This document shows, in pieces, positions 7,098 through 31,623 of a stretch of 64,000 nucleotides of DNA (within the stretch, counting starts at the first letter, position 1; every line of letters begins with the position of its first letter). Where the stretch lies: positions 682,001 through 746,000 of the forward strand of contig KE546978.1 of NCBI GenBank assembly GCA_000442125.1, given 5' to 3'. The notes under the pieces are model-generated. The model saw nothing but the letters and a program-made list of their open reading frames with translations, was not told the origin of the DNA and did not search any database. A program made the position numbers and the translations under genes. Origin of the DNA: Opeltia flavorubescens (taxonomy: Eukaryota > Ascomycota > Lecanoromycetes > Teloschistales > Teloschistaceae).

Positions 7098-8668
7098 CTA
7101 CAGCTTGGCTTTCTCCTGAGGCGTCACTAACGGGTCATACACGCCCATCCCCAGGGTGTCAGCGGGTACGGTGGTCGAGTGAAGACTCAGCCCTCGAGTA
7201 TCCACCAAGGTCGGGTTCAGCTGATCTACGGTCGAGCATCCGATCAACCGCATATTCATCTCCATCTCATCCTTCAGTAACTGCATCGCGCGATCAACAC
7301 CAGGCAGACCGTATGCGCTCATCGCATATAGAAATGGTCTCCCGATGCCGACACCTTTGGCACCTAAGCAGAGCGCTTTGATAATGTCAGTCGCTCGTCG
7401 AATGCCGCCGTCGATATATATCTCGATACGGTTCTCCCAACCCCGTTCGCGCAAGACCGGCATAACTTCCGCGAGCACCTCGATACCTGATCTCGCGAAG
7501 TCCAGCTGACGTCCTCCATGGTTCGATAGTACGACGCCGTGAACTCCTGCCTCTATGGCTCGGATGACATCTTCGACTCTTTGTACACCCTTTAGGAGTA
7601 TGGGCATCTTCGTGATATTGAGGAACCAAGGGATATCTTTCCAGCTCAATGCAGGATCGATGAACGACGATATAGCCCGGGCAGCACCTTGCGACCGGTC
7701 AACGTTATCTCCGCCAGTATCTTGTACATTTGAGCCAACATCGGAAAACTTGCTTCGCATATCCTTTTCCCGCCGGCCGAGTTGAGGCGCGTCTACCGTG
7801 ATGAAAAGGCCTTTGCATCCACGCTTCTCGGCATGTTGAACGATGCGTTTCGTGATTGCGCGGTCTTTGTTCACATATAATTGCAGCCATTGGGTTTGGT
7901 CGCCTTGCTTGGCATCGACGATCTCGTCAAATGAGCAGCTCGCGAGCGTGGGAATCATCTGAACCACATTATGCTTCTTTGCACCTCTGGTCAGGATTAC
8001 CTCTCCTTCCGGGTTACCGAGCTTGCCGAGGGCAGTTGCCGTCACGTAAAAGGGTATATCGACTTGAGTCCCAAGCATAGTAGTGGATAAGTCGATGTTT
8101 TCGACGTCTACCAACACCCTTGGTCGGAACCATATCTTGTGGTACGCGCTATGGTTTTCGCGCATTGTCTTCATGACACTTGCGTTAGGAAAAGTAAAGG
8201 AGAGTTTGAGAAAACACTTACAATTTCGTCGTCTGCGCCGCTTGAATAATATGCCCAGGCGGACTTCTTCATAACCCGCCGGGCTACTGCTTCGAAATCC
8301 ATCAGGTTATAGCACTGCTCGAGTATAGGCATCCGTCGAATCCTCTCCTGGCGCTCCTGTTCGTCAGGGTCCTCCTCGACTCGGTCTTGTTGAACGGTGT
8401 TCATGTCAACCTCCCCTAAATGCTTAGATTTGTCGAGATACTTGTCCAGTGTATCTGGAGGATGAATTGGATCATACGTTTCAGTCGCATCTTTGCCAGC
8501 CCACTTTAAAATGATTTGTTTCCCGCCTGGATGTTCCTCCTTGAACTCGGTGACATCGTAGGCCTTTCCGTGGATTATAACCCAGCAATCGCCATCATCA
8601 TTGTGTTTTGCCACTTCTGTGCCATCAAGCTTCTGCCCTTTGGGTTGCTTCTCGGATTCATGATTCAT
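7098..8668 (-). CDS. CYB2: flavocytochrome b2-like (L-lactate/2-hydroxyacid) dehydrogenase with C-terminal AKL
   Basis: Two exons, 8668-8222 and 8168-7098, across a 53-nt intron with an AAG acceptor, giving 505 residues. The cytochrome b5 domain (about 12-88) has the HPGG heme ligand H46 and the second ligand H69. The FMN-dependent alpha-hydroxyacid dehydrogenase domain follows (about 125-495), with FYVTATALGKLGNPEGE, QLYVNKDR, the active-site SNHGGRQLD (H366, R369) and the IYIDGGIRRATDI phosphate-binding stretch. Family members oxidise L-lactate or related 2-hydroxyacids and pass electrons to cytochrome c. Unlike yeast Cyb2 there is no mitochondrial presequence (it opens MNHESEKQ) and the last three residues are AKL, a canonical PTS1. 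Peroxisomal location is therefore an inference. The gene starts 315 bp from the giant element. Confidence 0.93.
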
Positions 8669-8977: not shown

Positions 8978-8982
8978 GGCAT
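8978..8982. repeat. target-site duplication, left copy (GGCAT)
   Basis: GGCAT lies directly outside the left terminal inverted repeat and is repeated exactly at 31619-31623 directly outside the right one. The base on the other side of each copy differs, so the duplication is exactly 5 bp. Confidence 0.8.
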
Positions 8983-9130
8983 TATAGTCGCCCAGGTGTG
9001 CCAGATTGCTATAACTTTTTCACTTTTCCATTTCGCTAAAATAAATTTTAAAAATTCAACTTCTATATACGCTTAATATTTTATACCTTTATTTTACTTT
9101 TATTTCGCTATAATTTCGTTATAATTTTAT
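8983..9130 (+). repeat. left terminal inverted repeat of the giant element
   Basis: Matches the reverse complement of 31471-31618 over 148 positions without a gap. I count 22 differences, all transitions, as RIP would produce. The outer roughly 60 bp keep ordinary composition and several CpA sites (for example in CCAGGTG, TTTCACTTTTCC), while the inner part is RIP-depleted. Confidence 0.85.
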
Positions 9131-9140
9131 AACGAAATTA
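9103..9140 (+). repeat. subterminal 11-bp repeats, left end
   Basis: Two head-to-tail copies of TTTCGYTATAA (9103-9113 and 9114-9124) are followed by an inverted copy reading TTATAACGAAA, making a palindrome around 9114-9137. Similar iterated units lie at the other end. Subterminal repeats of this kind are often transposase-binding sites; that role is inferred. Confidence 0.6.
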
Positions 9141-12100
9141 TAATTATTATTTAAATATTATTTAATATTTTTAAAATTATATTAAAGTTATTTTTACTTT
9201 TAATTATATAATAAAATTTACTATTATTAATTTAAAGTTTATTTTAATTATATTTTTATAATATATTAAAAATAATAATATAAAATAAATTTTAAATTAA
9301 AATAATAAATTTATTTAAAATTATTAATAATAAAGTTTTAATTCTATTTTATTATATAGTAAATAGTTATTATATACTATATTTATTTTTTATTTATTAT
9401 ATATTATATTTATTATATATATTATATTTATTTATAAATTTAATTAATATTAACTAATAATAAAATTATATAATAATAAACTTTTAATTTAATTATTTAA
9501 ATATTAAATTATTAGATTAAAGCTTTTAAAATAATAAATTTAATTTTTTTTATATATTTTTTTATATTTTATATAAAAAGATAATTTTTTAAAAATAACC
9601 GAGTATATTTATATTATAAAAGGTAAAAAATATAATTTAATCTAATTTTTATAAAATATTACTATATATTATAATATATATTATATTATATAATAATAAA
9701 TTAATTTAATATTTAAATAAACTTTAGAATTTTTTTTTTAAAATTAAAATATTTTTTTTATAGTAGTTTTAAAAGTAGCTAGTTATATTATTTTTTTAAA
9801 TTATATAATTTATTTATATTTTTTTAAAATTATTAATATAAAATTAATACTAATAAAGTTTATAAAATTATCGCTAGTTTTTAATAAAAAGCGTTTTATA
9901 TAAAAAAGATAATAAATTATTTTTAAAGTAATTAATAATAATATTAAATATAATAAAATTAAAATAGGTTAAATTTAATTATAATTAATAAATTATTATT
10001 AAAATTATTATAAAAACGGTTATTAATAAGTTTTTTAATAAATATTTTTATAATATAAATATAAATTCTAACTTTTTTTTTTTAAATTATTATAGCGGTA
10101 TTAGTAAAATTTTTATATAAAATATTATTATAATTAAACTCCGTTTATTTTTAAAAAATAGTAAAATTATTTTTATTATTATTTTTTTTAATATTATATT
10201 AATTCTATTTAATAATAGTTAAATTATTTATAATATATTTTAAATTCTATAAAATTTAATATTTAATAATATTTATAAGGTTAAAAAAAATATAATAAAA
10301 ATAAAATTCTTTTATAAAGCCGATTTAATTTTTTAAAATAAATCGATAATATAATAAAAATAGAATTTTATAATTATTAATCGAATTTTTTATAATTTAA
10401 TAAAAATTAAATCTAATATTTAATTTATAGGAAAAATAGTCTATTTTTATAGTAATTTTTATTAATATTTACTTATATAATTTAATATAAGCCCGGATTC
10501 GGTAATATAAATATATTTATAGAACTTTTTTTTTTAGAAAAATCTTTATATTTTATAATTAATAATTAATATATAGTTTTATAACTTTTTATTAAATATA
10601 TAAAGCCGTTTTAAAATAAAAAAATTTATTTAAAAAGTATTAAAAATAAATAATACTAGTATTTTTATTATAAATAAACCTAATATTAAAAAAGTATTAT
10701 AAAAATATAAATTAATTTTGAAAAATACTTTAAATAATTTAATTAAAGTTATTTATTTAAATTTTACTAATTTTAATAATAATAATAACTATTTAAAAAA
10801 GCGAGCTATTTTTATTATAATAAATATTAATATATTAAAAATTAATAATAGCTACGCGGATTTAATAAAAAGCGAGTTATATTTTAAATATAATTAAAAC
10901 TAGATATTAAAAAAAATTTTAAAAAAAAAATTCGATTTTAAATACTTCTATAATTTTAATAAAATCTTTTTTTATTATATATTTTTCGTTTTAAAATTAA
11001 TATATTTATTATATTTATTTATCTATTAATTTAAACTGTAAAAAGATATAATATTAAAAAAAAATATATACTTTAATTTTTTTTATTAATTATTATAATT
11101 TTACTTAATCTTAATTAGATAATATAAATTCGAAATTCTAGAATTAAAAGCTAAAAATAGATATAGAATTTAAAATATTTATAAAAATAAATTATATATA
11201 GCTAGTCCTTTAATAAAAGGGTCGAATTTTAACTTATACGCTTTTTTTTTAACTAGATTACCGATTTAAAAGCTAAAAAAAGATAGAAATATAGATAAAA
11301 TAGTTATTTATTTATCTTTTAATAATAGTATTTTATTTTTTTTTTAAAAAAAAAAGGAAGGTTTTATATATTAAATAATACTTAAAAGATTAAATTACGC
11401 GGTTATTAATAAAAATATATTAGTTATAATAAAATATATAAAAGTAATTTTAATTTATACTATACTAGATTTAAATTAAATTATAGTAGTATTTTTACTA
11501 ATACTCTATTATAGTTTTAAGTTAAGTTATAATATTCGAAACCGCTATTCTATATATATAAAAAAAATCCGACTAGTTAAAAAAAAATATTTAAAAAACT
11601 CGAATTTTTTATTTATATATATTATAATATATTTAACCTCCGTTTTATAAAAGAAAATTTATTATAAATAATAAATAATAAAAATAAAAACTAGACGCGT
11701 TAAATAGAAAATATTTATTTTTATATTAAAAATTACTTAAAAAACTAGATTATTAAACTCTATAACTATATTAATAATATAATATTAGCTAAAGTATAAT
11801 ATATAAATATAAATTTATATTATACCTATTATCTTTATTTATATTATTATTATTGGTTATATTTTATAAGAATTTTTAATTAAATTATATTTTTTATAAT
11901 AATTATATTATTAAATATATAATTCTATTTTAAATAATCGATATATTATTATAATAGTTAGAATTATATAATAGCTTTTATAGTCGAGTAATAAAATATA
12001 TATATACTAATATATAAAGCTCGGGTTCGATTTCTAGTAGATATTATTATACTAAATATTACTCGAAGAAATTCGAGTATATTTAATACTAGCGATAGTA

Positions 12101-15100
12101 TATAATAATTTTTTTTTATTCCGTTTTTTTCTTTAAAATTTCGCGGTAGAAAACGACTATAATAATTTAAAAAGTAGTAATTTAAAGCTAATATATTTAT
12201 AGATATAAATACTAAATAATAGTAATACTTTTATAAAATAATTAATATACTTTACTAGCGCGTAAATAAAAAGTCTAGACGCTATTATATAAAATATAAT
12301 ATAAAATAGAAAAAATAAAAAAAATATATTTAAACTCTATAAAGCTTTATATTATAAAGTTAAAAATAAATAATAAATAATAGAAGATAGAATAGTAAAT
12401 AGTAGTAGATAAATTATTAAATAATACCTTAATATTTTATAAAAAAGCGGGAAAACTCTAATACTAGGTTTTAATAAAAAGGTTTTTATTTTTTATAAAT
12501 AATCTAATTAGCTTAAATTTTATTTTAACTATTAATTTTAAAAATTTTTTATTTATATATAAATAAAAAAAGGTATAATATTAAAAAAAGATATTAAAAA
12601 GAAGTTTAGTATTAAATAATATTAAAATATTTACCCGCTTTTATATAATTTATAATTTAGCTAATATTTAATTAAAATATATAATTTAAAATATATTCGA
12701 ATATTTAGATTTAATATTTTAAAATCTATAGATAATATTATTTATTTAAAGCGTGGTTTATAAAATAAAATAACTATATATTATAAAACCTTTAAAAAAA
12801 TTTAAAATCTCTATAATTTATTTAGTATAGGTACTTCTATAAAACTTTATATATATTAATTTAAAGCGTATTTTTATAATAAAATCTTATATTAAATATA
12901 AATAATATTAGTCTATAATTTAATAAAATTATATAGCTAATTATATATTTTAAAATAATCTAAAAATTATTTAATTTTACTCGATATTAAAATATAAATA
13001 GCTTTAAAAATAAAAATTTAAAAATATAATTATAGAGTTTAATAGTTTTTAGTAATATTTTTTCTTTTTATTATATTTTTTTTTTTTTTAATTCTTTTAT
13101 TTTGATATTTAAAACTATTTATAAACTATTTTTAAATTAATTTTAAACCGTTTTTTTATTTAATTATAAAATTATCTAATTTTTTTTAATATAATTTATT
13201 AGATTTAAAACTTTATAATTACTATAAATTCTACTTCCGCGGTCTTTAATTCTACCCCTAGTCTATTTATTAAAAGTACTCGTTTATAAACGCTTATTAA
13301 AAGAGCTTAATTTCTAAAATCGGTTAGTAAATTTAATAATATAATTATTAAAATTAATAGTATTAGTATTAATATTAAAGCGAAAAGAAAAAGTAATAAA
13401 AAAAAAATTTTAAAAATATATATTATTTAATCCCTCCTACTTCGATTAAATAATAATAGGAGTCTAATTATATAGTATCTTATATTATTAAAGCTAGAGT
13501 TTAAAATTATAAAAAAAAAGTTAATTATTAATTAAAGATATAAATATTATACGCTATATAAATATAAGAGAAGAAATAATAAAAGGTTAGATAAAATATA
13601 TAAACGAAGGTAAAAGGTAAATAATAAACTATTATTATAGAAAATAGCGGATAAATAATAGCGAATAAAATAATAAAAAAGGCTTTAATTATTATAAAAC
13701 GGAATATAAAACTTATCGCTTTTTAAAATAACGAGATTATTACCCGCTATAGAAAAAAAGAAAAATACCGCTATCGCGAAGAAAAAAAAGAAGTTTATAT
13801 AATAGTAAAGAAAGATAAAAAAAAGAAAACTTTAGAAATAAAAAGAAAATATTATATAGGAATTCGCTAGTTTATATATAAAAATATTAAAATAAAGCTT
13901 TTTTTTATTAATTAATTTATTTTAGGCGAGAATAAATTTCTAATTAATTATAAATTAATAATCGAGATTAAAAACTATAAAAACGAGGTATTATATTAAT
14001 AATAGAATAGATCTTATTTATTTAATATTAACTAGTTTTTAAAATTAAATCCGGGTTAAACTATAAATTACGGTAAATAAATAAAATTAATAAAAAAAAA
14101 TAGAGCTATAATTAATTCGACGTTAATTTATTTAAAAAAAAATTTATTAAAATATTAAAAGATTAAAGGTTTAATAATAATTATAAATTTATAATTTAAA
14201 TTAAATTATAATATTTTAAATTTATATATTAATATATTAATCTCAGCTCTATATTTAATTAAAGTAACTAATATTAAAAAATTTATTTTAAAAATTTAGA
14301 TAAAATTATATTTAAAAGTTTACTATATTATTTAACCAAGTTTTCGCTATATTTTTATAGCGTTTTTATTATATTTTTACTACGATATTATTTTAATTAT
14401 AGATTATTACCTTTTTATTATTTTATATTAAAAGACTTTATTATTTTTTTAAAGTAAACTTTATTAAATTATAAATTTTATTAATAAAATAAATTTAATT
14501 AATTATATCTATTAAATAAAATAAATAAAATACCTATATAAATTTTTTTTTTATTCTTTTTTATTAAATTTATCGCTAATTATATTAAAAACTATAACTA
14601 TATTTTTTAAATTCTTTTATATTTATTTTCTAGTATAAAAATTCTTTTAAATTAGTTAATTTATAGGTTAAATAATTAATTAAACGATTATTTAATTTTT
14701 TATTTAAATAACTAGTCGATTATTTAAATATAATAATTTTATTTTTTTAAAACTTTAATTAAATATTACCGGTTATATAAAAACTAGAATAAAAAAGGTT
14801 TTTAGTCTATATATTAGCTTATAGATCGCCTAAAAAAGTTTATTTTTTACGCGTAGTAGAAACTGGTTTTAGTTATTTTTAAAAAAGGTATTAATCTTTA
14901 ACTTTATTAAATAAAAATAAATCCTATAATATAGCGTTTAAATCCGTAAATAAAGATATAAAAAGGCTATAATTAAAAATATCTTTAATATATTAAAATA
15001 ACGGTAATAATACTTTTTAATAAAATAGTAAAGTTTTTTTTAAAAAATAAAAGACTTATAGTACTTTTACGCGATAATAATAATAATTATTATTTTCTAG

Positions 15101-18100
15101 TTTTAACTATATTTAATTCGTTTATTATATACTTTTTTTATTTTATTTTAAATTATAGTTTTTTTCTTTTACTCTAATCTTTTATAATATCGAAAATTAT
15201 TCTTTTTATTAGGTTTTTTTTAATTCTAGCCTCTATTTTAATTTTTTTTTTAATATACGCCTAGTTCTAGTATTAAATCTATATTTAGATTTTATTTTAG
15301 ATTTTTTTTTAATATATTTATATTCTATTTTAGACTTTTATTTAACTATTATTCTTTTCTTTAATTCGATCTTAACTTTATTATTTAAATTAAAATCCTT
15401 TAATTCTATTTCGTTTAAATATTAATTATACTATATAATAAATATATATACCTTTTTTTTTTTTAATAAATTTAATTTTATATTTTTAAAGTATAATAAT
15501 AAACGGTTTAATTATATAATTTTATATATTATTAGATTTATTACCGTTTTTAACTTCTATACTTCTTCTTTTAGAAAAAAGGATATAATAAAAAATCGGC
15601 GATTCTAGTCTATATTATTTAGGTTCTTAAAAAAACCTTAGATATTTTTAACTCGAAGGATAAATAAATTAATAAATATATTAATATTAATAATTATCTA
15701 TTTTTTTAAAAAATATTTATATATAACTAATAATAATTAATATTAGATAGATAATATTAAATAATAATATAAAATAAAAAATAAAAAAAAAAAATATATA
15801 ATTACTTTTAAATTTATATTCTAGAATAATAAATATATCTCTACTTTTATACTAATAATTAATAGCTATAATTTTAATATTTAAAGTATATTTATTATTA
15901 AATAATAATTTTATATCTTTTAACTTTCTATAAATTTTATATAGGAGATTATTAAAATAATTTTTAATATAATTAAATAATATTATTTTTAAATCTTTAA
16001 AAAGGGCCGGATTTTTAACTATAAATATTTTTTAATAAATTTCCGCGTTTATATTATATAAGTTAAAATATAGTAAAAGAAGTTAATCTAATCTAGAAAT
16101 TATCTAAAAAAATTAAAAAAGGACTAGAACGGAAACAACTTAAAAGTAAATAAAGCCGGGTTAAAAAAATATATTAAAATATATAATTTCCTATAAAAGC
16201 GGAGGTAATAAAAAATCGAAAATAGAATTTTATATATTATAATCCGGGTAATAGCGGTATTTTATATAATTTTTATAAAAGCGACCCGATTTTAAATAAT
16301 ATATAAATTAGATAGAAAAAAATATAATAAATTATTAAAATAATAATTTTAAACCGATAAATAAAAAATTAATAAAAAGTTTTAATAAAAATTTAAAATT
16401 AACAAAAAATTTTAATATCGAAGCGATAATTTTATAAAAAATATAATAAAAATAAAAAAAAAAAAAAAAATTTATAAAAGCTAGTAAAAATATTTTTAAA
16501 GAATTTATATAAAATTAATATAAATCTTTATTAAAAGTAATTAAACGCTAGTTAAATAAATATTTAATTATTTACCTAAAAATTATAACGTTAATACCTT
16601 TTAAATTATAATTTTAATAAATAATTAAACTTTTTAATAGTTTTTAAAAATTTAGATTTTATATCTTTTTATATCTATAAACTCTATTAATAAACTTTAT
16701 AGGCCGTTTTAAAACTACTATTTTTAAAATTCTAAAATATTATTTTATAATCTAGCTTTTTATAATACTATAGAATCTTTAATAAATACAAGTATTATTT
16801 AATTTTCTATAAATATAATTAAAGCGGAAAATTTATATAGTTATTAAAATAAAAATAAAAATAAATAAAATAAATTAACGTTTAATATTAGGAGGAATTA
16901 TTAATAAAAAGAAAATTTAGAGTATTCTATAGATAAATAAATATTAAAAAAAAAATTTATAAATAAAAATAAGGTATAATTAATTATAGTTAGTATAATA
17001 AGTAAAAAAAATAATAATAGTACGTTTTACTAAATATAGTTTTTATTTGATTTATTTAAATAGTTATAGAAGTTTATAAAATTTATTATACCATTTTTTT
17101 TTTATTATAACTACCGCCGAATTTTTTAATTTTTTAAATTTATTTAAACCGGTAATATTAAATATAATAGCTTATTTAAAAAAGCGGGCTAAAATATAGT
17201 AAATAAATATAAAGCTGTTCCGAATAAAAAAATATATTAGAATCGTTTAATTATTTAAATAAATATTCGGGATTTATTTATTTAGATAAAAGATATAAAA
17301 TTAAATATAATTAATAAAAAGGAATTTTTATTTTTTATTATAATTATAACTATAATTTATACGGTTAAACCGATATAATATATATATTTTTTTATTTTTA
17401 ACTATATTTTTAAAGAACTAATTTATTTTAGTTTAATATTATTTAATATTTTATATTAAATTTTTCTATATTCGCTTAAAAGAATATAAAAAAATATAAA
17501 ATAAATTTATTAAAAAATAGTAGTATATAATAAATATTAAATATAAAAACGAAAATAATAGTATATTTAATCTATAATAAAAAATTATATTTAATATTAA
17601 TAAATATTCTAATTATATTTATTTTATTTTTTTATAAATTTTATAAAAAGTTTAACTAGCGAGGAATATTATTCCTTTTTTTTTTAATATTAGACTTTTT
17701 TAATATTTTTATTAGCGATTTTTAATTTATTCTTTATTTTAATATAGAATTTATAATTTCGATAGCTTTTATATAGTAAAATCTTTTATAAAATAAATTT
17801 AAAAATATTAATCTATTATTTTAATTTTTAAAACCTATTATTATAGTTTTTTTTAAATTTTTTAATACTTATAAATAAAATTTTATATTAGATAAAATAT
17901 TAGAAAAAAAAAATATTAAAGGTTTCTATTTTTTTAAAAATATTATTCTCTATTTTAAAAGAAGTATTAGTATTTAAAATCGGAATATAAAATAGATTAA
18001 AGAATAAAAAATATATATTAAAAATTTAAAAAAATAATTAATAGATTTTTAATTTATATATTAATATAAAATTTTTAATTTAAATAATTTTTATAATACT

Positions 18101-19149
18101 ATAATTATTTATTTTTAAAAAAATATAAATAGTTTTTATTTAATATTAGATTAGAATTTTTAAATAAATTTATAAATTATAATAATTATATAACGAAATT
18201 AAAGTAAAAATATAATTAAATTATAATATATCCCGCTAAAGCGAATAATAAAAAAAGCTAGTCTTTAATATTAATATTATAAAAGTATTCGATTTTTTTA
18301 ATTCTATTTTAATATATTTTTAATCTATTTTTATTTTATTTTATTATTATAATAAACTCCTTTATTTATTATAATCGATACTTTTAAAAAATTTTTAATT
18401 TTATAAATAAATAAAACTATTATAATCATTTTAATAGTATTATTTATTATTAAAAAACCGCGACGTTAAAAACGTATATATAATATATTAGGCGGTATTA
18501 TAGTATAAAATAATATTAAACTATATATTTTTTTATTTATAATTTTTTTTCTATTAATTAAACAAGTTTTAAAAATTTTTTTAGAAATTTATATTAATAT
18601 CCGCCGAATTTTAAATAAAATACGCTATATAAATAATATAAATAAAAATATTTTTAATAAAATAAAAACTCTAGTTTAATATTTTAATATTTAATTAATT
18701 AATATTTTTAATAATATAACCGAGGTTTAGTATATAATATAAATAGTATTTAATACTATAACGGAATTTTAATAATTAATTTAAATAGTTTTTAAAATAT
18801 TATAGTAATTTAATAAATAGAAATCTAATTTAATATAATAGTAAAATTAAATTCGCTTTTTAAAATATAATTATTTTAATTATAAAATTATAATAAAATA
18901 TAAAATCTCGGTTTTAAATAAAATTTATATATTTCTTTAAGTATTATTACTATTAGAAATAATAAAATCTTTATTTCTATCTAATATTAAACCTAACTTA
19001 TATTTTAATAAAATATTAGATTATATTTAAAATACGTTTTAAACCTACTTTTATTAATATATTTTTATAATTTAAATTAATAATAATCCTTTAATACGAA
19101 CTAATATTATATTCTAATTTTTATATTATTATTATAGCTATAATATTTA

Positions 19150-19990
19150 ATTATTTAGATATTAGCTTTTCGAGTAGTATTTAATACGAAGATCTTCTTT
19201 TTAATTTAATAAAAAGTAGAGAATTAATTTAAAGCTTATTATTATATTAATATAAAAAAAATAATCGATAAAATATTATTACCGATCTACTTTACTACTA
19301 TTTATATAGTTAACTAGAAGTTTATTAATATAAAAAAGCGTAGAAAATCTCGGAATAATATCTATAAAAAATAGTAAAAAGAAATAAATAAAAATATTAT
19401 TCTTTTTTTAAAATCTATAAAGGCGTTTAAAATATATAAAAATAATAAAGCTATTAAATTTAAAAATAATACTACCTTTTATTATTATATTATTATTAAT
19501 AAAGTATTATTATTAACTATTTTAATTAAATTAAAACGTTTAAAGTTTTTATTTTTTTTTATTAATACTATAAATAGTATTAATTTTACCGTTAGTATAT
19601 TCTTTTTTAAATAATATATCTTTTTTATTATTAATAATAGATATTTACTTTTTTAGTAAAACTAGAGTATTTATATATTATTTAGCTATTAAACCAATTT
19701 AAATTATATAAATAAAAACCGTTTATTAATAAGTAGGTAGGAATTTAAATTTATTAGATATTTTTAAATTAATAGACCTTTTTATATATATTCGAAATTG
19801 TTTTAATAGATATAGATTTAAATAAAAAACGCGAGTAAAAAATAGATTATAATATAAATCAATAATATAATAAATCTATAAAAATTAATAATTAGAATAT
19901 TTATTAAAAGTTAGAAAAAATTATATTAAAAAATATAAATATATTATTTATACTATTTCTATTTTTATTATTAGAAAGCTTACTAGTTTT
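19150..19990. repeat. internal segment related to 24130-24850 (copy A)
   Basis: Boundaries approximate. Shares ordered landmarks with the second segment about 5 kb away: a CTTCTTTTTAAT-like stretch, AGTAGAGAATT, TTATTATTATAT, then AGTTTATTAATATAAAA, followed further on by a TAGATT...AAAATTA..AGAAG/AAA..TATATTAAA block. Both are in the same orientation. Probably two diverged, RIP-mutated copies of one gene-like module. Low-complexity AT sequence makes chance similarity a real risk. Confidence 0.4.
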
Positions 19991-21070
19991 ATTATTTTTA
20001 AGCCGGTTATATATATAACGCCGTATTTATAAGTTATAATAGCTTTTAAAACCGTAGAAAAATATATTTTTATTCTAGCTTTATTTATTATAAAAAAATA
20101 AAAAGAGATATTTAAATAATATATAATAGGAATATTAAAAAGAAATCTATTATAAAATACTATTATAGATTTATTAAATAAATATATATTAATTAAAACG
20201 CTGAAAAATATTATTATTATATTAATATAATAACCTTATTTAATATAAGCTTAATATATATTTTATATTCTTTTTTAAATTTAAAAAAAATTATATTATA
20301 TTAAATTAAATATTAAATTAGAATTAAATATTTATTTAATTTACCGTTTAGTATATATATATAATATAATATTTAAATTATTCTCCTTTATAATATTTTA
20401 AAATAATTATAAAATTCGAATATTAATTCCGATTTATTTTTAATAGAGATAATAATATATAAAAATAATAATTTTATAAAAATTTTTAAATTTATAGTAA
20501 CTAGTAGTCCTTTTATACTTATAATAAGTTTTTATTAAATTTTTAATATATTTTCGCTATAAATTTATTAATTTCTTATAAAGGTTTAATTATATATATA
20601 TTTATATTAAATATATTAATTATATAATTTATTTATTTAAAAAGGGTATAAAAGTTTTTAAAATTATTTTTAATAAAATATATATATTAATAAATTAAAT
20701 TTAAAATATTTAATTAATATCTTTTTAAATCTTTTATTAATTATATATATTTTATATAAATATTGCTTTTATTACTATATATCTCGCGTAGTATTAATAC
20801 TTTTTTTCGCCTTTAACCTTCTACTTTTAATATTTAAAGTCCGGTAATTAGTAATAGTTTATATACCTACTATTTATTCTAAATTTAATATAGTATTTAT
20901 ATTAAATTTTAAAATCTAATATAAATTTCTATTTTTATTACTTTAAAGTCCCTAATATATAAAAGGAATTTACTAGTTAAAGCTTTTTTTAATTATTAAT
21001 AATATAATATTAAAAGCATTTTATAATATTTATAAATATTTAACTTTTTAATTAATTCCGATTTTTACTA

Positions 21071-21310
21071 GTATAATATTTTTTTTAGTTTTTTTTAAAT
21101 AATTATAGTTTCTTTTTTTTAAATAATACTCCTCCGTTAATATTTATTTAATTTTTATCTATATTTTTATTTATTTTTAAAGCTAGTAGTAGCTTTTTTT
21201 AATTATTTTAATTTCTTTTTCTTAAATAATACTCCCTTATTAATATTTACTTAATTTTTATTTATATTTTTATTTATTTTCGGAGCTAGTAATAGTTTTT
21301 TAAAATTATT
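21071..21310. repeat. two-copy tandem repeat, period about 103 bp, inside the giant element
   Basis: The unit starting AAATAATACTCC at 21121 recurs at 21224 and the two stay alignable without gaps for about 78 bp, ending in AGCTAGTARTAG. Differences I can see are transitions, so the duplication predates RIP. Confidence 0.55.
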
Positions 21311-24129
21311 CTATAGTTTTAACTTTAATTTTAATTATTATTAAAAGATTTAAACGAGCGATTATATTTTATTATAATACTATTCTATACTATTTATATA
21401 TAAAAAGAACCTTTATAAAAAAACCTTTACTAATTTTTATTAAAAAGGATTTCTTTTAAATAAAATATTAAAATTTATTTTTTAATCTATTTATAGCGGG
21501 ATATAATTTAATAAAATTTTAAATATAATATTATAAATAAAGCTTTAAATTTTTCTAAAAAAATACCTTTTATTATATAAATAAATTCGAATTTTTATAG
21601 TAAAAAACTAGTTTAACTACTAGTTTTAATATAATAATTATAATATATTTTATAAAAATTTAAAAAGAGTTTTTTATTATAATTTTATAATTTTTTTTAT
21701 TTAACTTTCTTTTTTATTTATTTAACTCGATATTATTAATATTATTTTTATTATACTATATCCGGTATTATATTTTAATAAATATTAAAGATATATTATT
21801 AATTATATCCGGGATAATATAAAAGTAGATAATATCCGATAATTTTTTAATAATCGATTTTTTATTTATATTTTTAAATATACTTTTAACTAGTATTTAA
21901 AATAATAGAATTTATATAAATTTCTAAAAATCGAAAAATCGGACGATTTAATATAATATATAATATTTTTCTATTTTTATATTTATTTTAATAATAAAGT
22001 AATATTTTATATTTTATATAAAGAAAGCTAGCCGATATTTAATAGAACTTTTATATAATATCGTCTAAATTTAAATTTATCTTAAAAGATAATTTTAATA
22101 AAAAAACGAAATATAATAAATTTATAAATATTTAAATTATTATAAAAAAAATTTAAAAAAAGCGTTATATAAAATTATAAAAAAAATAGACTATTCGATT
22201 ATTTTTATATAATAGGCTATTAAATATAGAAATATAGCCTTTTAATAATAAATATTTTATTTTTATATTAACCCGCTATAAAAATAGATTTTATTAATAA
22301 TATCGGCTTCTTATACCGGAATATATAGAATAGCGCGGTAAAAAAATTTAATAAAAAAAAGGAGAATTTATTTTATTTAGGCTTAATACTATATAATTTC
22401 TTAATAAATATAATAAATTTAGAAATTATAAAATTAAAATATATATTATTATTAATAGATATTTCTATTATTTATTATAGATTTATATTAAATATATAGT
22501 TTATATTTAAATTAATATTCTTTAATAGTATTTTAATTATATCTAGTTTTTAGAATTTATTTTTTATATAATTCGGACGGATTATAGAAGCGAAACCGGG
22601 TTAATAGTATAAATATATTATTAATTATATTAATTAATAAATTTTAGTATATAATTTTTAAATTATTATAAATATAGTATTAATACTATAAATATAAAAA
22701 TAAAAAGATAATAAAATAAATTTATAGATATCTATAAGTTCCGCTAATAAATATAATATATTAATCTATCTAGTTATAATATAGCGTTTATATTATATAA
22801 ATCTATTTTCGATTTTTTTAAAAAGAAGGTTTTTTTAGTAATAACCGCCTAGAAAATTAAATTACTTTTCTAGCTATTTATTTATATATTATTCGCTTTA
22901 AGATTAATAAATTTATAAAACTATAGAATATATATTAAATAAAATTATAAAAGTATTGTTTAAATATAATATTTAGATATTTATAGAAATTATATTATTA
23001 TAATATAGGATTTACTAAAAATTATATTTATTTATTTATTAATAATAAATTTAAAAAATTTTAATAAAATATATAAAAATTCGATAAATCTATTTTTTTA
23101 AATATTAAAAAACTATTTAAAATTAATTTCTAAATATAAACAACTACTTTCCTTAATTAATATTAGATTAGTATATTAACTAGCTTATAATATTAGGTTT
23201 TAATTTTATATAACTACCGTTAATTTTAAAATAAAAATATATAATATTTTATAAAAACTATTATCTCGCTTTTTAAAATATTATTTATAAGTATATATAT
23301 AACGGCTAATTACTTCTACTTAGGTTTTTAAATAAACTAGAAGGTATATAAAATTAGTAGCTATAAAATCTAGCGTAATTCTATATTTTACGATTAGAAT
23401 TAATATTATAAAATAATCGATTAATATTAAATATTATAACTTTATATATTATATATATCTAATTATAACTTTTTTTTTAATTATAAAATTTAGAAACGGA
23501 ATAATAATAAAATTAATAGTAAATAAATAAAATAGGTACTACTTAATAAATAAAAATCTAGAAAATTAATAAAGCCTTTTTAAATTTTAGAATATTAATA
23601 AAACTAGGTAAAATAATAGAATAATTATAGTAGTTTTTTTTTATTACCTAGCTATAAATTTATCTTAAATACTTTTAATTTATAAAAATTTTAAAAAATT
23701 AATTAGATTAAATATATTATAAATAATATTTACTATTTTATAAAAAAAAACTTTTTATAATTTTATAATAGGTTTTAAATATAATATTTAAAATTATATT
23801 AAAAATTTATTAAAAATCTATTTAATATATAATAAAATATTAATAATTATAAATTTTATTTTAATTAATATTTAGTTAAAATAATATATAATTATATTAT
23901 TAATTTATTATTAATTATCTTTTATAATTTAATAATTATAATATTTTAGTACAATTCTATTTTAATTTATTTCTATTTTATTTTTTTATATTTATAAATA
24001 TATATAATAAACTAAAATTAAACGTTATCTAAAAAAGTTTATATTCGAATTATAATAAAAATATTTAAGTTTTTTTTTAATAGGATATAGAATAAAAGAA
24101 AAGCTATTATCTATTAATAGGTTAGTTAT

Positions 24130-24850
24130 TATATATACTATTATTATATTAATAAAATCTAATTCTTTAGCCGCTAGCTTTTTAAATAACACGAAAATCG
24201 TCTTTTTAATATAAAGTAGAGAATTTATCTAAAACCTATTATTATATAACTATATTTAGACTATTACTAGAAAAATTAACTAAAAGTTTATTAATATAAA
24301 ATAATAATACTTTAAAATAATAGGACTACTAAATATAAATATAATACTATTTTTTATTATTATATTATTATAAATAAAATTATTAATAAAATATTTTTAT
24401 TAACCTTTTACTAAAAATTAAAATTCTATAATTTTTTAAATTTTAGCTTTTTTATTATTATAATTATTGATTTTTAAAACTTTAATTATATAATTAGTAC
24501 GTTTTTTTTTAAACGATTATTTTTTATTATATTTAATAACAGTCGCTTCTTTTTTTAATAAAAAAATAAAACTTTTATATTTTTTAATAATCTAAATAAA
24601 GTTAATAAAAAAAGTTTTTTAATAAATAAATAGAAGTTTAAACCGCTAGAGATTTTAAAATTAAAAAAAACTTTAATATATTAATAAAATCGGTTTAATA
24701 AATTTAGGCTAAATTAAAAAATATAGATAAATATTAAGTTATAATATAGATTAATAGGGTAATAGATTTAAAAAAATAAATAGTTAAAATATATATTAAA
24801 AATTAGAAGAAGCTATATTAAATAATTTCGGTTCGATATATATATACGGT
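24130..24850. repeat. internal segment related to 19150-19990 (copy B)
   Basis: Partner of the 19150-19990 segment; same landmark order (CGTCTTTTTAAT, AGTAGAGAATT, CCTATTATTATATAA, AGTTTATTAATATAAAA). Boundaries approximate, and identity is modest because RIP has altered both. Confidence 0.4.
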
Positions 24851-25376
24851 TATATAGTAGTAATAGCTATAAAGGCGAATTATTATAATAAACGATATAT
24901 TAAAATTAATATAATTAATATAATTAAAATAAATAGAATTAATAAACTTTTCGCGTATATTAAAATAAATTAAATATTTAAATATTTATTAATAATTTAA
25001 TTTTATTTATTAAACTATCTATTTTTTTATAATTATCTATTTTAGTAATAATTATAAATTTAAGTAATTTTATTATCTATAAACTATATATAATATTTAT
25101 TTTTTACTACTCGCTATTTATTTATATAAATAATAATAGTTTTACTAATAATAATAATATTAATAGAATTCTAAATAAAAAAAAAAATATTTATATTAAT
25201 TTAAATATTATTTAAATTTTTTTAAACGATATTTAATACGGATACTTTTATTAAAATTCGAATCTAAATATTCCGGGTTTTTATATAAATATCTTACTAT
25301 TAGATTATAAAGGCGCGATATAAATTTATTTTTATATTTATTAAAGTATTTATTAATATTATTAAATCTTTTAATT

Positions 25377-25540
25377 ATAAATTCCGATTTTTTTTTAATT
25401 AAATTTATATTTACTTTTAATAGATTTAATAAAAATAAATTATTTTTTATAAATTCTAATCCTCTTTTAACCAAGTTTATACCTATTTTTAATAAATTTA
25501 ATAAAAATAAATTATCTTTTATAAACTCGATACTCCTGTT
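25377..25540 (-). repeat. 72-bp tandem repeat inside the giant element
   Basis: Units at 25377-25448 and 25449-25520, with the start of a third at 25521, align without gaps; the differences I can see are transitions. The period is 24 codons, so this may be a relic of a protein with a 24-residue repeat, and it lies within the only long frame of the block (minus strand, 25208-25474). Confidence 0.55.
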
Positions 25541-28500
25541 ATTATTTAAATAAATAGATAATAATAAAAATATAAATAAAATCTTTTATTTAAAAACTAT
25601 ATAGTTTAAATTTTTTAAATAATTTTTAATACGGAAACCTTTAGTTTATAACTAAAAAAAAAAATTTAGTTAAAAATATAAATAAATATAATATAAAAGA
25701 ATTTTAATACTCTATTAATTATTAACTAGAAAATAATTACTAGTTTTTACTAAATTCGATCGCTCGATTGTTAATTTTTTAGGCGATTTTTAATACAGTT
25801 ACTCTAGCTTTATAAATAAAAAAAGAATAAATTAAAAAAAAAAGGAAATAAATTAAAAAAATTCGAAAATAATTATAGTTATATTAATAAATATTAAAAT
25901 TAAAGTTATATTTAAAAATATAAACTAGTTTTTTTTAAAATATTAGAAACCTAATTTAACTATAAATATTAATAGCTCTTTTATAGAAAAATATATTAAA
26001 GTAAAAATAAATAAAAATTTTCGAATAAAAGTTTTTTTAAAAGATAATTTTATTTATTAAAAGATAATAATATATAGTATAAAAATACGAAAATAGGTAA
26101 TAATATAAAATCCTAAAATAGAATAGTAGGCTATAGGATATAAAATATATAAAAACGAAAAAAAAGTAATATAGTTTAATTTAAAAACCTAAAATTATTA
26201 TAAATAAATAATATAATTAGCGATTTAATTATTTAATCGAGTATTATATTTAAAAAAAAATAATATATTTTTATAAATTAGATTTTATATATATTAAACT
26301 CGCCTATATATTTTAAATTTTATAGTTATTTTAAAAAAATCTAGAAAATATTAGCGGAATTAAACTAAAAATATAACTAAAACGTGGTTAAAATTAAAAT
26401 ATTTTATATTATTTTTATTATAAAGTATAATATAAATCTATATATTAAATAAATATAGTATATTTAATATATATAACTATTTAAAATTTTATAAATTATA
26501 AAATTTAAAAGTATATTTATAGATAAACTAATATATAAAAGTTTTATAAATATTTTATTATTAAAACCAGTTCTATTAATATACTAGTTTCTAGAGTAAT
26601 TTTATTAACGTCTTATCGTCTAGAAAATTTTTATAGAACTCCCTATCTATTTTACCGGTAGCGGGGCGGACTATTTATAATAACCCGCTATATATATAGC
26701 TATTTATAATATTTATAACTACTCGCTTTAATTAAATTAACCTATAAAAGCGGTAAAATTATAATAACTAGAATATTATATTAATAAAATTAGAAAATAG
26801 ATTATTTATTAAATTAAATAATTCTATAATAATATTAAATTCCCGCTAGTTATCCTCTATATTTAAAAAACGTAAACTATATATAGTTAATTTTTTTTAT
26901 TTATTAAAGTATTATTATTAATATCCTCTATTTTATTAATAATATTCTTTATAGCGTTTTAATAAATAATATCTTATTTTAATATTAGTATAATATTATT
27001 TAATATATTTAAAAAAAATTATATATATTAGAAACGGCTTAAAGCTTTTATTAAACAAATTATTAAACTAGTAATTAGATTTTAATATATATTATAAAGC
27101 GATAAATATTTATTTTTATTATTAATATAATTAAATTAAAGGGTTTATATTAATTAAATAAATAAATATTAATATATTAATTAGTTTTTTTATATTAAAT
27201 TTCCTTTATATTATTTTATAATTTATTATACTTTTTTATTTTAAAAAATTTTATTAATATTATTAAAAGCTTTAATAAAATTTAAAAAACTCGATTTTTT
27301 ATTAATATAATACTTTAATACTATTTTTTTTTTTTTTTTTTTTTAACTAGACTATTTTTTTTTTTAATATAATATTTTTTTTTAGTATTAAATTCTAAAC
27401 GGTTTTTTTTAAAAGTTTTTTTTTTATTTCCTTTATATTTTATATTAATAGTACTAGTAAGCTGTTATAGATTATACGGCTAGTTTTTAATAATTTAATC
27501 TTAATAATAATATTCTAGTTTATAGTAAAAAAATTATTTAATATAATAAAATAGAAATATAGACTAATAATAATATAATAGTTAGTATAATAAAAGAAAA
27601 AAAGAAGGTTAGATAAATAAGTAGAGGTAAAAAAATAAAAAATAAAAAAAGAAATAGATTAAAATTTAATTAATCGCTAAATAATTATATTTTTAATAAT
27701 AATCTCGTTTATTATATAGCTAATTATTTTTTAAAAAACTTTTTATTAATTTTTTATTATAAATCTATCGAATTATAAAAAAAAATTTTATATTTATATT
27801 ATTATTTATTAGTGTTATAATTTTTATATTTTTATAACTTTTTAATAATAATAGTATTTAATTTATAATAAAATACCCTTTATTTATATTAGATTTAAAA
27901 AATATTTTATTTTTTTTAAAATAAAACCTTTAATTTATAATTAATAACTAGACCGGTTTTATTTATATTATTTATAATATATTTTATAATTTAATTAAGC
28001 CTTTTAAAGGTATTTAAATTATAAAAAAACTAATATCTAGTAATTTTATAAAGGTTTTAAAGTAGGAAACGGTATTTTATTATAATATTAGCGTTATTTT
28101 TAATTTAATTTTATATTATTAATAATAAAATATAATACTTTATTATAATATTATTATTATTACTTATTTAAATATACTCGATATTATAAAAATCCGGCGA
28201 ATAAAAAAATATAATAATATCGGATTATTAATAATAAAAAAATAAAAATTTAAATTTTAATAAATTTTAAATATAAAAAATAATTATTTTTTTCTAATTT
28301 TTTTTTTTTAATTAACTTTTAAATTAAATTTTTTAGTACTAGATTAAATAATAGCTAGAAAATTATTTTATTTATATTATTTTAAATATTTATCTAGCTT
28401 TATATTTAATTATTATAAATATATAATTCCCGCGTTTAAATATTAATAGTCTATAATATCTAGTAAATATAAACTTTATAGATTATTAAATAGGAGAAAA

Positions 28501-31090
28501 AAGGACTATTTATTTATATATAATCCGATTTTTATATATTTTTTTACCTATTACTAAAATTGTTAAAATTCTACGTGATTATAAATTTAAATTATACTAG
28601 TTTTTAAATTAAACTAGATAAATTTTTAATAATAAAATTAACTTTAATATAACTATTAAATATAATATTAGCTTTTTAATTATTTATATTACTAATATTA
28701 TTTATAATATTAGTAACTCCGATATCTTTTTTATAAAAATTATCGATTTTTACTATAGAAATAACTATAATACTATTAAAATTTTAAGGATAAAAAAACG
28801 TTTAAAGGTTTTAGAGGTTAAAAAAATAAAAAATTATTATTATTCTAATTAAACTAATAATCTAGAGTTTAATTCCCTAAATAGAGTTAAATATAGCGAT
28901 TTTTTTTTATATAATAATCCGGAATATAAACCGTTTAGTAAATATAATTATAAATATCTACTAATATTTTATTATTTAATTATTCTTTTTTTACCCTTTT
29001 ATATAACTAGTAGGATAATTTATCTTTTTCTTTTATATATAGTTCTTTACTTCTACTCTTTAATAATTTCTAGTATAAAATAGCCGCTAGTATAAATAAA
29101 TTTAAAATATTATTAATATCTTTTAAATAATTAATAAAGTAAATTTAGAATTTTTATCTTTTAAAAGTTATTAAAGGTAAATAGTATTATTATATTATAA
29201 ATTAGATAAAATATTATATAATTATTTATAAACTTTAAATATTTTATAAAATTAAAACTAGAAAATTTTTATTTTTAATTTATAGATTTTAAAGTTTTTA
29301 AAAAACTATATTTATAAAATATTTATAATAAATTTCTCGATTTAAAAGGTTTTATTAAATTTAAATTTAAATAGAATTATTTTATTATATAATTATAGAT
29401 TAGGTTAATAAATTTAATATATAGTAATTTACTTTTTAATACTATTCTAGTACTATTATTATTATTTTAAAAGTAATTCCGTTTTATAATTAAAAATTTA
29501 TTACTATTATTAAATTCTTTTATAATCTATTTTTATATATATTTATATTTTAATATTTTCTTTAAATCTTTAAATTTAAGTTATTATATTTTATTTAAAA
29601 ATTAAAAGCCGGATTTTTAATTTAAATCTATTAATAAAATATTTTAAAAATTTATTTTTTTTATTTAGCTTCTCCTTTTTTAAAACCCTTTTTTTAATTT
29701 ATATAATAGTCGTTATTATTTATTAATAGCTCTAGTTATAATTATTAATTAAAATCTACTATTTATTTTAAATTTTTTATTATTTTTTATTACCGCGAGT
29801 ATTAAGCTAGTAAATAATTAAAAGCTTTTAATAAATATTAATTTATAAATTAAATATAATATTTAAAATTTTAATTAATATAATAATAGTTTAGTTAATT
29901 TTATAAAATATAATAATTTTAAATTTTAGAATTTATATTTAATAGTAAAAAATTAGTATTTAACTCGTTTTAATTAAAGATTATTAAAAATATAAAATAT
30001 AAAAATAAAATATTTTATATACGAAAAAAAAAATATAATTATAAAAGGTTTTTAAATTAGTAATAATTTTTTTTTTATATATATATTAAAAATTTTTAAT
30101 AGTAATAATATTATATAATAATATAATTATAAAATATTATATAATTTTTAAATTTTATTTTAATTACTTTTTATAATTTTAATATTATTTCGCTATTTTT
30201 TTACTATAAATTCGCTATATTTTCCTAATTTTATTATAGAGGTTCGATTATATATATATTTATATATATAATATTTATTATAAATTTAAAATTATTTTAA
30301 AAATTTTTAATTATTTTTAAAGCTTTTATTAGAAAAAAACTTATTTTAATACTTTAATTTAAATATTCGAATATTTATAATAACTCTATTAATATTATTT
30401 ATAAATATTATTTTTTATATTATATATTTTATTTAATATAAATCCCTTTAAAGTATAAAAAATTTATATTTTTTTTTATTTTTAATTTTTTACTTTTTAT
30501 TTAAATTATCTCGCTAGTAGTAATAATATACGAACTTTTTATTTATTTCGGATTATATAAAATATATTAGTAAATTTATTAGAAATAATAATATAAAAAT
30601 TTATTATTTTAATTATTTAGAAAATTTTAATATATATTTAGTTATAAATATATATCTCGCGAATTTATATATCTAATTTAATATATTTTAATAATTAAAT
30701 TTATAAGTTATTAATTATTATAATAAATATAATTTAAATAAAAAATTAAATATATTTAAATAAATAAAAATTTTTTTTTTTTTTTTTTAAAATTTTATTA
30801 TTTTTTATATTTAATAGTATATATAATATAAGGATTCTTATACTAGAATATCTACTATTAATAATTCCGGTTTTTAATATTTATTAATTAATATATATAA
30901 ATTTTATATAAATATTATTATATATAATTAAAGCGTTAATATTTTTTAAAAATAATTTAATATATATTAATTAAAATTAAATTAAAATATAATAATTTTA
31001 TAAATATTATATTTAATATAAATTTAATTAATTTATTTTAATAAATAAATTAAATAAATATAAAAATAAATTTTAAATTTTTTTTAATTA

Positions 31091-31095
31091 NNNNN
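31091..31095. other. assembly gap (5 N)
   Basis: Five N within the AT-rich block, 523 bp from its right end. Element length and the sequence next to the gap are therefore uncertain. The matching GGCAT duplication and inverted repeats on either side argue that the two contigs were joined correctly. Confidence 0.95.
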
Positions 31096-31454
31096 TTTAA
31101 AAATATAAATTTTAAATTTAATTTTTTAAATTATAATTATTTATTTCTAATATTTTTCTATTAATTAAATTTCTTTTATATATATAAAATAAATTTATAG
31201 ATAAAATTTAAATAAAATTTTATAAATATAAATTTAGCTAAAAAATAAATATAAAAAATAAATTATAATAAAAGTTAATAAAATTATAAATTAATATTAA
31301 TATATATTTATATAATATAATAAAACCTAAAAAATATTATATTAAATAGTTTTTAAAATTTTATAAATATTAAATAAATAAAATTTTAAAATATAAAAAA
31401 ATATTACAGTATATTTAATTATAAAAGAACTTTATTAATTTAATATAATAAAGA

Positions 31455-31498
31455 CTATTATAAAATTATAATAAAATTATAGCGAAATTATAATAGAA
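31455..31498 (-). repeat. subterminal 11-bp repeats, right end
   Basis: Read on the minus strand, four consecutive 11-mers follow one another: TTCTATTATAA, TTTCGCTATAA, TTTTATTATAA and TTTTATAATAG. All four can be derived from TTTCGYTATAA mainly by transitions. They begin within the right inverted repeat and run about 16 bp inward beyond it. Confidence 0.55.
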
Positions 31499-31618
31499 TA
31501 AGGGTAAAATAGGGGTATAAAGCGTCGGGCGTATATAAAAGTTAAATTTTTAAAATTTATTTTGGCGAAATGGAAAAGTGAAAAAGTTATGGTAATCTGG
31601 TACACCTGGGCGACCATA
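31471..31618 (-). repeat. right terminal inverted repeat of the giant element
   Basis: Inverted partner of 8983-9130 (148 bp, no gaps, only transition differences). This copy keeps more C and G in its middle part (TACGCCCGACGC on the minus strand) than the left copy, so it is the better guide to the original terminus. Confidence 0.85.
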
Positions 31619-31623
31619 GGCAT
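31619..31623. repeat. target-site duplication, right copy (GGCAT)
   Basis: Exact partner of 8978-8982, abutting the end of the inverted repeat (CGACCATA at 31611-31618). Confidence 0.8.

Follow-up and report, generated by a model that had tools for sequence, protein, structure and literature searches.

A 22.6-kb AT-rich tract with 148-bp inverted ends and a 5-bp target duplication in Opeltia flavorubescens: a candidate giant DNA transposon saturated by RIP

The 64-kb window (the whole stretch of DNA that was analysed) contains an extremely AT-rich tract of about 22.6 kb (8983-31618) between recognisable fungal genes. Is this candidate single insertion one mobile element and, if so, of which kind? 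The initial annotation had read it as one insertion of a very large element with 148-bp inverted ends (TIRs), directly bounded by GGCAT. When the two ends were compared, the ends and the bounding repeats were confirmed. The left TIR (8983-9130, plus strand) begins TATAG, and the right TIR (31471-31618, minus strand) reads TATGGTCGCCCAGGTG on the minus strand. In inverted alignment the arms differ at 22 of 148 positions and every difference is a transition, including position 4 of the left TIR, where the right arm has G and the change is TpG-type. Purine/pyrimidine letters cannot be changed by RIP. Since the arms agree at 148/148 positions in these letters, the TIR length of 148 bp is exact. 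The first transversion between the arms falls at position 149, transversions are common beyond it and similarity is lost abruptly. In purine/pyrimidine space the TIR pair scored 154, versus 46 for the best of four shuffled controls.

GGCAT directly abuts both the left TIR (8978-8982) and the right TIR (31619-31623). The arithmetic chance of a 5-bp match at fixed ends is 1/1024, and the adjoining 6-mers are unequal (CGGCAT and GGCATG), so the target duplication (TSD) is 5 bp and not 6. This geometry of TIR and TSD supports a single insertion. The insertion site is intergenic with recognisable host genes on either side, as nine of the ten flanking frames scanned (21 frames listed) have Pfam matches. 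The 12-mer GTCGCCCAGGTG has two exact matches in the window, which are the two TIRs. With one or two mismatches it has four matches, in host DNA (0.82 expected in total when the whole window was shuffled), and this search revealed no second end like these TIRs within the 64 kb. Among IMG/VR contigs, seven carried a 16-base end pattern, with the TIR continued past 16 bases in none of them, and a 28-base inner TIR pattern had no match. Two TIR stretches searched as text had no match in the literature searched, nor did Rfam at gathering scores or tRNA scans give a match in the whole window. The evidence on the element is drawn from one copy only.

An assembly gap of five N (31091-31095) lies inside the element, 375 bp from the right TIR. 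The final 523 bp, with the right TIR among them, lie beyond this gap, so the 22.6-kb length depends on the assembly join. The gap and the single copy seen would also suit a block that is not one mobile unit, with ends that are alike by descent of unrelated repeats or through a join at the five N. Against this stand the complete purine/pyrimidine identity of the arms, the abrupt loss of similarity, the matching flanking 5-mers and a composition shift at both ends, and we regard it as the least probable of the readings weighed here.

The composition shift was analysed next to the dinucleotide content. The interior (9131-31470; statistics computed on 9111-31490) has about 11.4 % GC, and the flanks have 48.7 % and 49.2 %. 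CpA and TpG are nearly absent inside (observed/expected 0.04 and 0.03) and normal outside (1.04-1.13). The target pattern of RIP, C-to-T at CpA on both strands, was found in the dinucleotide depletion and in the arm differences, all of them transitions. When CpA plus TpG were counted over 300 bp inside each end, the outer 60 bp contained seven (left) and eight (right), with one more per arm further in; the flanks contain 40 and 35 over 300 bp. The RIP footprint stops at most about 100 bp from the TIR ends on both sides, and the flanks are normal. In the first 85 bp of the arms, six of the seven differences are CpA/TpG-type. The suggestion that the block is more than degenerate heterochromatin stands as far as a bounded TIR element is concerned, with the modification that its AT-richness is saturated RIP ending at the TIRs.

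The exact 148-bp TIRs, the 5-bp TSD and the RIP-type damage ending at the TIRs are direct observations. With a little more confidence than doubt, we read them as the single insertion of a cut-and-paste TIR DNA transposon of giant size (about 22.6 kb), of the integrase-type DDE class, near IS3EU/GingerRoot, unplaced as to family and killed by RIP. Relatives of retroviral-integrase/IS3-type DDE enzymes make 4-6-bp duplications, and their TIRs are often long. An enzyme of this type would have bound to the TIRs, cut the target with a 5-bp stagger and joined the ends to it. Related genomic copies may have triggered RIP along the element after insertion, presumably more weakly over the outer 60-90 bp, and RIP would have killed it.

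When Pfam was searched with 18 readings and two stop codes, RVT_1, DUF3435, PolB, Helitron Rep and transposase families gave no match at E ≤ 0.1, and rve, alpha-kinase, capsid and packaging ATPase had no match in the 18 readings; the sensitivity of this read-through was gauged on RIP-simulated host proteins and not family by family. A RIP-aware IS3/IS481 profile, built from prokaryotic ORFs of 128 of 151 loci, reached 20.2 bits at best, which is noise, as controls went up to 23.9 and 24.5. IS3/IS481 proteins put through simulated RIP scored 60-237 bits, and 12/12 were found in place; as profile members, and not distant relatives, they speak for the power of the method only. When the TIRs were still part of the scanned sequence, the top match was the un-RIPped TIR itself (34.5 bits; eight shuffled profiles up to 37.8) and, because of this, the outer 150 bp of each end were left out of later profile scans.

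The initial annotation had described the element without any genes. This has to be modified, as a PIF1-like helicase remnant is likely close to the left end (Pfam PF05970, profile positions 18-216 of 223; 10055-10660, plus strand), only 924 bp from the left TIR. It was the single credible Pfam match, obtained in one of 18 six-frame readings through stops, with an E-value of 4.4e-4 when stops were read as X and 2.7e-7 (30.8 bits; cut-off 25.9) when they were read as Q/Q/R. The probable extent of the helicase frame is 10055-11647 (plus strand; 531 codons with 31 stops today), and it shares its phase with a stop-class-depleted segment (10634-11647) and a segment of the purine/pyrimidine model (9990-10874). 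In a control, the X-at-stop reading named all four RIP-simulated host proteins submitted (seven were made) and, in the Brr2 piece, overlooked the second helicase domain. The helicase call depends on one Pfam profile, because a bacterial PIF1 profile (26 ORFs) did not detect the region (best 22.9 bits elsewhere in the element, noise level), a reading of 10334-11947 that starts 93 codons inside the domain had no Pfam match at E 0.5, and inspection by eye shows Walker A without its first glycine.

In the preferred reading, the helicase gene would act as a helper or ride along as a passenger, and it may have come from a Helitron. Helitron helicases are of the PIF1 type, a likeness to the present element; to our knowledge, Helitrons have neither long TIRs nor target duplications, in contrast to the 148-bp TIRs and 5-bp TSD here. 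Helitrons encode helicases (PMC6431247, excerpt), and the Rep domain upstream of PIF1 was unmatched here in any frame, with sensitivity gauged on host proteins only.

A truncated Helitron could also have supplied the PIF1 gene if a smaller TIR transposon had been a landing pad for others, with the whole nest RIPped and one element as its outer shell. Such fungi often contain RIPped nests, a PIF1 helicase is what Helitrons typically carry and coding-like segments in the interior are few. In addition, 11 non-TIR repeat pairs, including two adjacent tandem pairs, score above the best shuffle (46). A dispersed repeat (19431-19953, plus strand) recurs in diverged form and in the same orientation at 24306-24845 (82 % of 550 columns identical in purine/pyrimidine letters), and another (20436-20961, plus strand) recurs likewise at 30092-30636 (76 % of 547 columns). 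Just inside the right TIR, a subterminal repeat (31216-31353, plus strand) is related to copies at 19802-19934 and 24692-24829. The dispersed pairs are about 15-24 % diverged in purine/pyrimidine letters, gaps counted, versus 0/148 for the TIRs, so the repeats look older than the insertion; separately inserted copies that had already diverged would, however, look alike. Beyond the two adjacent tandem pairs, the interior showed no near-identical repeats such as LTRs, whereas LTR elements nested in it would be expected to leave them. In no frame was there a match to reverse transcriptase, Tc1/pogo-type transposase, DUF3435 or Helitron Rep, at a sensitivity gauged on host proteins only. As hallmark domains were unmatched and LTR-like near-identical pairs absent, we consider a nest of ordinary elements possible and rather unlikely. 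The internal repeats were also considered as coding paralogues; this was not supported, as codon periodicity was absent, including in the 19431-19953 repeat and its copy.

The single-transposon reading was compared with known element groups. Fungal IS3EU elements (Pucciniales families) have TAYGG..CCRTA termini, TIRs of >30 bp and several genes, usually with 6-bp TSDs and with transposase, alpha-kinase and TET/JBP genes, the alpha-kinase being a feature of the fungal TET+ families (PMC12730594, excerpt). The outermost ends here, TATGG..CCATA, fit this pattern and the TA..TA of IS3EU in PMC10045372 (excerpt): the right end is TATGG, and the left end is TATAG with a TpG-type change. The differences are the 5-bp TSD and a PIF1-like helicase in place of the IS3EU transposase, alpha-kinase and TET/JBP genes, which were undetected here. 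Styx of Zymoseptoria, with a transposase related to IS3EU, also comes from an ascomycete and has several genes enclosed by TIRs, but it is smaller (7.9 kb, 36-bp TIR and 6-bp TSD; PMC10853768, excerpt) than the 22.6 kb, 148 bp and 5 bp here. GingerRoot shares the TA..TA ends in most cases and differs in its 6-bp TSDs (PMC10045372, excerpt). Because the 5-bp TSD does not fit and the transposase was unseen, the element was not assigned to IS3EU/GingerRoot.

Ginger2 has TIRs of 45-297 bp, 4- or 5-bp TSDs and TGTNR termini, its listed autonomous elements being 2.8-6.7 kb (PMC2836005, excerpt), and TDD-4 and TDD-5 have 5-bp TSDs (PMC10045372 and PMC2836005, excerpts). The long TIRs and the 5-bp TSD here agree with this group, whereas TATRG ends differ from TGTNR and the listed Ginger2 elements are smaller. 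The descriptions of GingerRoot and Ginger2/TDD in the excerpts of PMC10045372 and PMC2836005 mention no helicase, in contrast to the PIF1-like one here. Transib shares the 5-bp TSD (GGCAT here), and the termini of the CMCT group are CA..TG in most cases (PMC12730594, excerpt) versus TA..TA here, so the ends differ, as had been said at the outset.

Size brings in two further groups. Starships are giant fungal elements moved by a tyrosine recombinase, and a small one could also account for the inverted ends and the short flanking direct repeat. Exact 148-bp TIRs would be unusual for a Starship. Starships span about 20-700 kb, and a curated set of 20 from A. fumigatus comprises 19 with direct repeats (2-12 bp) and 18 with TIRs, long or short (PMC12153272, excerpt), so the earlier remark that Starships normally lack long TIRs needs this gloss. 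It is the unmatched DUF3435 captain, expected at the 5' end, that speaks against a Starship here, rather than the presence of TIRs: none was found at E ≤ 0.1 in 18 readings with two stop codes, sensitivity gauged on host proteins only. A Starship is therefore improbable. Even less probable is an integrated virus-like element, of the Polinton/Maverick kind or another, in spite of a size near 20 kb, long TIRs and a short duplication. PolB and the retroviral-type integrase were unmatched in Pfam (sensitivity gauged on host proteins only), as were capsid and packaging ATPase, and PHROGs gave one unnamed family (phrog_33872, E 0.0032), taken as chance. Polinton duplications are 6 bp (PMC10045372, excerpt) versus 5 bp here.

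An undescribed family, as had been suggested, is possible; TATGG..CCATA fits the published IS3EU pattern, which the initial annotation had left out of account, though the IS3EU TSD is usually 6 bp. Tentatively, the element could represent a novel family or even superfamily of giant DDE transposons in fungi, characterised by long TATGG..CCATA TIRs, 5-bp TSDs, their own PIF1 helicase and several unknown genes. A cut-and-paste element would then have recruited a replication helicase, RIP would hide it from genome annotation, and purine/pyrimidine and RIP-aware reading could reveal such elements across Pezizomycotina. Discussion of giant fungal mobile elements centres mainly on tyrosine-recombinase Starships; if the preferred reading is true, integrase-type DDE transposons may also reach the 20-kb class in a RIP-competent fungus. 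Saturated RIP tracts remain readable, as purine/pyrimidine identity gives the exact TIR length and, with stops read through, genes at 11-12 % GC can still be named by Pfam (4/4 simulated cases).

The element interior looks poorly coding, which counts against the preferred reading. With a 64-codon model, five weak segments were found in the element (one within the helicase frame) and none at a stricter setting, versus 13 in RIP-simulated host flank and 0 to 4 in shuffled controls; since the training set of the model was those very host frames, the comparison is biased towards the flank. A first self-training codon model was dropped as it drifted towards A-rich codons. The purine/pyrimidine codon model gave two segments in the element and none in five shuffled controls. 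Two Pfam families at E about 0.06 and PDB matches at E 0.03-0.07 (unrelated bacterial protein against AT-rich sequence) were taken as chance. Three coding-like segments without a family match exceeded the best of eight shuffles (9.8) in stop-class depletion. The first (28622-29080, plus strand; score 11.8) has one stop-class codon in 153 codons, no Pfam match and a purine/pyrimidine-model segment (28620-28898) in the same phase. The second (13208-13921, minus strand; 11.4) has no Pfam match. The third (25211-25645, minus strand; 11.1) has no credible one, DUF3150 at E 0.096 being taken as chance, and contains a 72-bp (24-codon) tandem repeat at 25375-25541.

When GC content was followed across the window, values of about 48-49 % were observed except in a single AT-rich block of about 22.6 kb (8983-31618). 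The two ends of this block (8983-9130 and 31471-31618) are inverted copies of each other. These terminal inverted repeats (TIRs) were compared in purine/pyrimidine letters, since a purine stays a purine and a pyrimidine a pyrimidine under C-to-T mutation of either strand. The arms differ at 22 of 148 positions, every difference being a transition, and the first transversion falls at position 149; purine/pyrimidine identity is 148/148. GGCAT immediately adjoins both ends (8978-8982 and 31619-31623), and a 6-bp duplication fails to parse (CGGCAT vs GGCATG). The identity of the arms and the abutting GGCAT therefore bear out the initial annotation of a giant element in its coordinates, its 148-bp arm length and its 5-bp duplication. 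We conclude that the block is a real, well-bounded giant TIR insertion, killed by repeat-induced point mutation (RIP), with its right end joined across a 5-N assembly gap. The five N lie inside the element at 31091-31095, 375 bp short of the right TIR.

The AT-richness is saturated RIP that stops at the element ends. The interior has a GC content of 11.4 % and observed/expected ratios of 0.04 for CpA and 0.03 for TpG, with normal values in the flanks. CpA/TpG counts were 7 (left) and 8 (right) in the outermost 60 bp of each arm, 1 per side in the next 240 bp inward, and 40 and 35 in 300 bp of flank. In the first 85 bp of the arms, 6 of the 7 differences are of the CpA/TpG type. Since RIP acts on repeated DNA, this footprint implies, short of proof, that the genome once contained other, related copies sharing these ends.

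Twenty-one long frames were listed in the flanks, and 9 of the 10 scanned against Pfam gave matches, including Bud13, anoctamin, calcineurin-like phosphoesterase and FMN-dependent dehydrogenase on the left and Ras-family GTPase and Brr2-like helicase on the right. The insertion site appears intergenic, as the element sits between the dehydrogenase frame (7101-8306, minus strand) and the Ras frame (32212-33006, plus strand). Judged from the flanking genes and the mutation pattern, the host was taken to be a RIP-competent fungus.

Long TIRs with 5-bp duplications are found among integrase-type DDE elements; Ginger2/TDD elements are described with TIRs of 45-297 bp and duplications of 4 or 5 bp (PMC2836005). 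Complete IS3EU families are described with TA..TA ends and usually 6-bp duplications (PMC10045372), and their fungal ends as TAYGG..CCRTA (PMC12730594). The element ends (TATGG right, TATAG left, the difference being a TpG-type change) fit this fungal pattern, whereas the duplication is 5 bp instead of the usual 6 bp. A RIP-aware scan with the prokaryotic IS3/IS481 profile gave at best 20.2 bits, which is control level: 25 shuffled profiles reached 23.9 bits and 10 shuffled sequences 24.5 bits. Scores of 60-237 bits were obtained for 12 profile members after simulated RIP. A transposase close to prokaryotic IS3/IS481 is therefore unlikely in the element, though the scan would miss a diverged IS3EU enzyme. 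By their terminal sequences the ends appear closest to IS3EU/GingerRoot, and the element was not assigned to IS3EU. About five 11-bp units around TATAAT, possibly transposase binding sites, make up 31444-31499, which spans the inner portion of the right TIR and the sequence beside it.

The interior (9131-31470) was read in six frames and three pieces (18 readings, stops as X) against Pfam. The sole match at an E-value of 0.1 or better was a PIF1-like helicase (plus strand, 10055-10660; E-value 4.4e-4). With stops read as Q/Q/R it improved to 2.7e-7 and 30.8 bits (family cut-off 25.9); two more families at about 0.06 were what chance allows. As a control, RIP was simulated on seven host frames of the window (10.3-12.2 % GC). 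All four of those submitted to Pfam returned the correct family (weakest E-value 0.013) and none a wrong one; the second helicase domain of the Brr2 piece was missed. The PIF1 frame shares its phase with coding-like segments 9990-10874 and 10634-11647. A profile of 26 bacterial PIF1 proteins was blank at 10055-10660, and the X-at-stop reading of 10334-11947, in the PIF1 phase and starting inside the domain, had no Pfam match at an E-value of 0.5. On visual inspection, Walker A lacks its first glycine; the residues that follow, as well as motif Ia, are largely consistent with the consensus, codon class by codon class. A PIF1-like helicase remnant is thus likely present, and its Helitron-type ancestry would be a guess. 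Among the matches listed in the literature search, no TIR transposon with a PIF1 helicase was recognised, although one may have been published.

Three other segments showed stop-class depletion above eight shuffled controls (best control 9.8): 13208-13921 (minus), 25211-25645 (minus) and 28622-29080 (plus). Pfam gave no fitting family for these; DUF3150 for 25211-25645 (E-value 0.096) did not fit. A 64-codon model found no segment in the element at the stricter setting and five weak ones, one within the helicase frame, at the looser setting (shuffled controls 0 to 4). It found 13 in the RIP-simulated host flank, a comparison biased towards the flank because the model had been trained with simulated versions of these host frames. 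The weak yield therefore means either that the element is gene-poor or that its genes are old or compositionally unusual. The only PHROGs match in the interior (phrog_33872, function unknown; E-value 0.0032, one of 18 readings) was treated as chance.

Among known giant elements, Starships are reported with direct repeats of 2-12 bp in 19 of 20 cases and TIRs in 18 of 20, and the captain recombinase is said to occur in all (PMC12153272); in contrast, no captain was detected in our 18 Pfam readings. Styx of Zymoseptoria, mostly 7.9 kb long, is described as having TIRs of 36 bp and duplications of 6 bp, four open reading frames and a transposase related to IS3EU (PMC10853768).

Eleven non-TIR repeat pairs in the interior, two of them adjacent tandem pairs, scored above 46 (best of 4 shuffles) in purine/pyrimidine space. 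The strongest (19431-19953 with 24306-24845) shares 82 % purine/pyrimidine identity, and the two longest pairs lack codon periodicity. Such a pattern would also arise if two diverged copies had inserted separately, as in a nest of other elements inside an outer TIR shell. This we regard as less likely than a single unit, though with an appreciable probability, since no dispersed pair in the interior has LTR-like near-identity and the 18 Pfam readings, whose sensitivity was gauged on four simulated host frames, contained no reverse transcriptase, transposase, DUF3435 or Rep match. The dispersed pairs diverge by about 15-24 % (purine/pyrimidine, gaps counted) vs 0/148 for the TIRs and so look older than the insertion, which together with the lacking enzyme matches favours one element rather than several common ones nested in each other. 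In the interior, a stretch of about 133 bp close to the inner edge of the right TIR (31216-31353) recurs at 19802-19934 and 24692-24829 (84-85 % purine/pyrimidine identity), and a tandem pair with a 103-bp unit lies at 21090-21313 (96 %).
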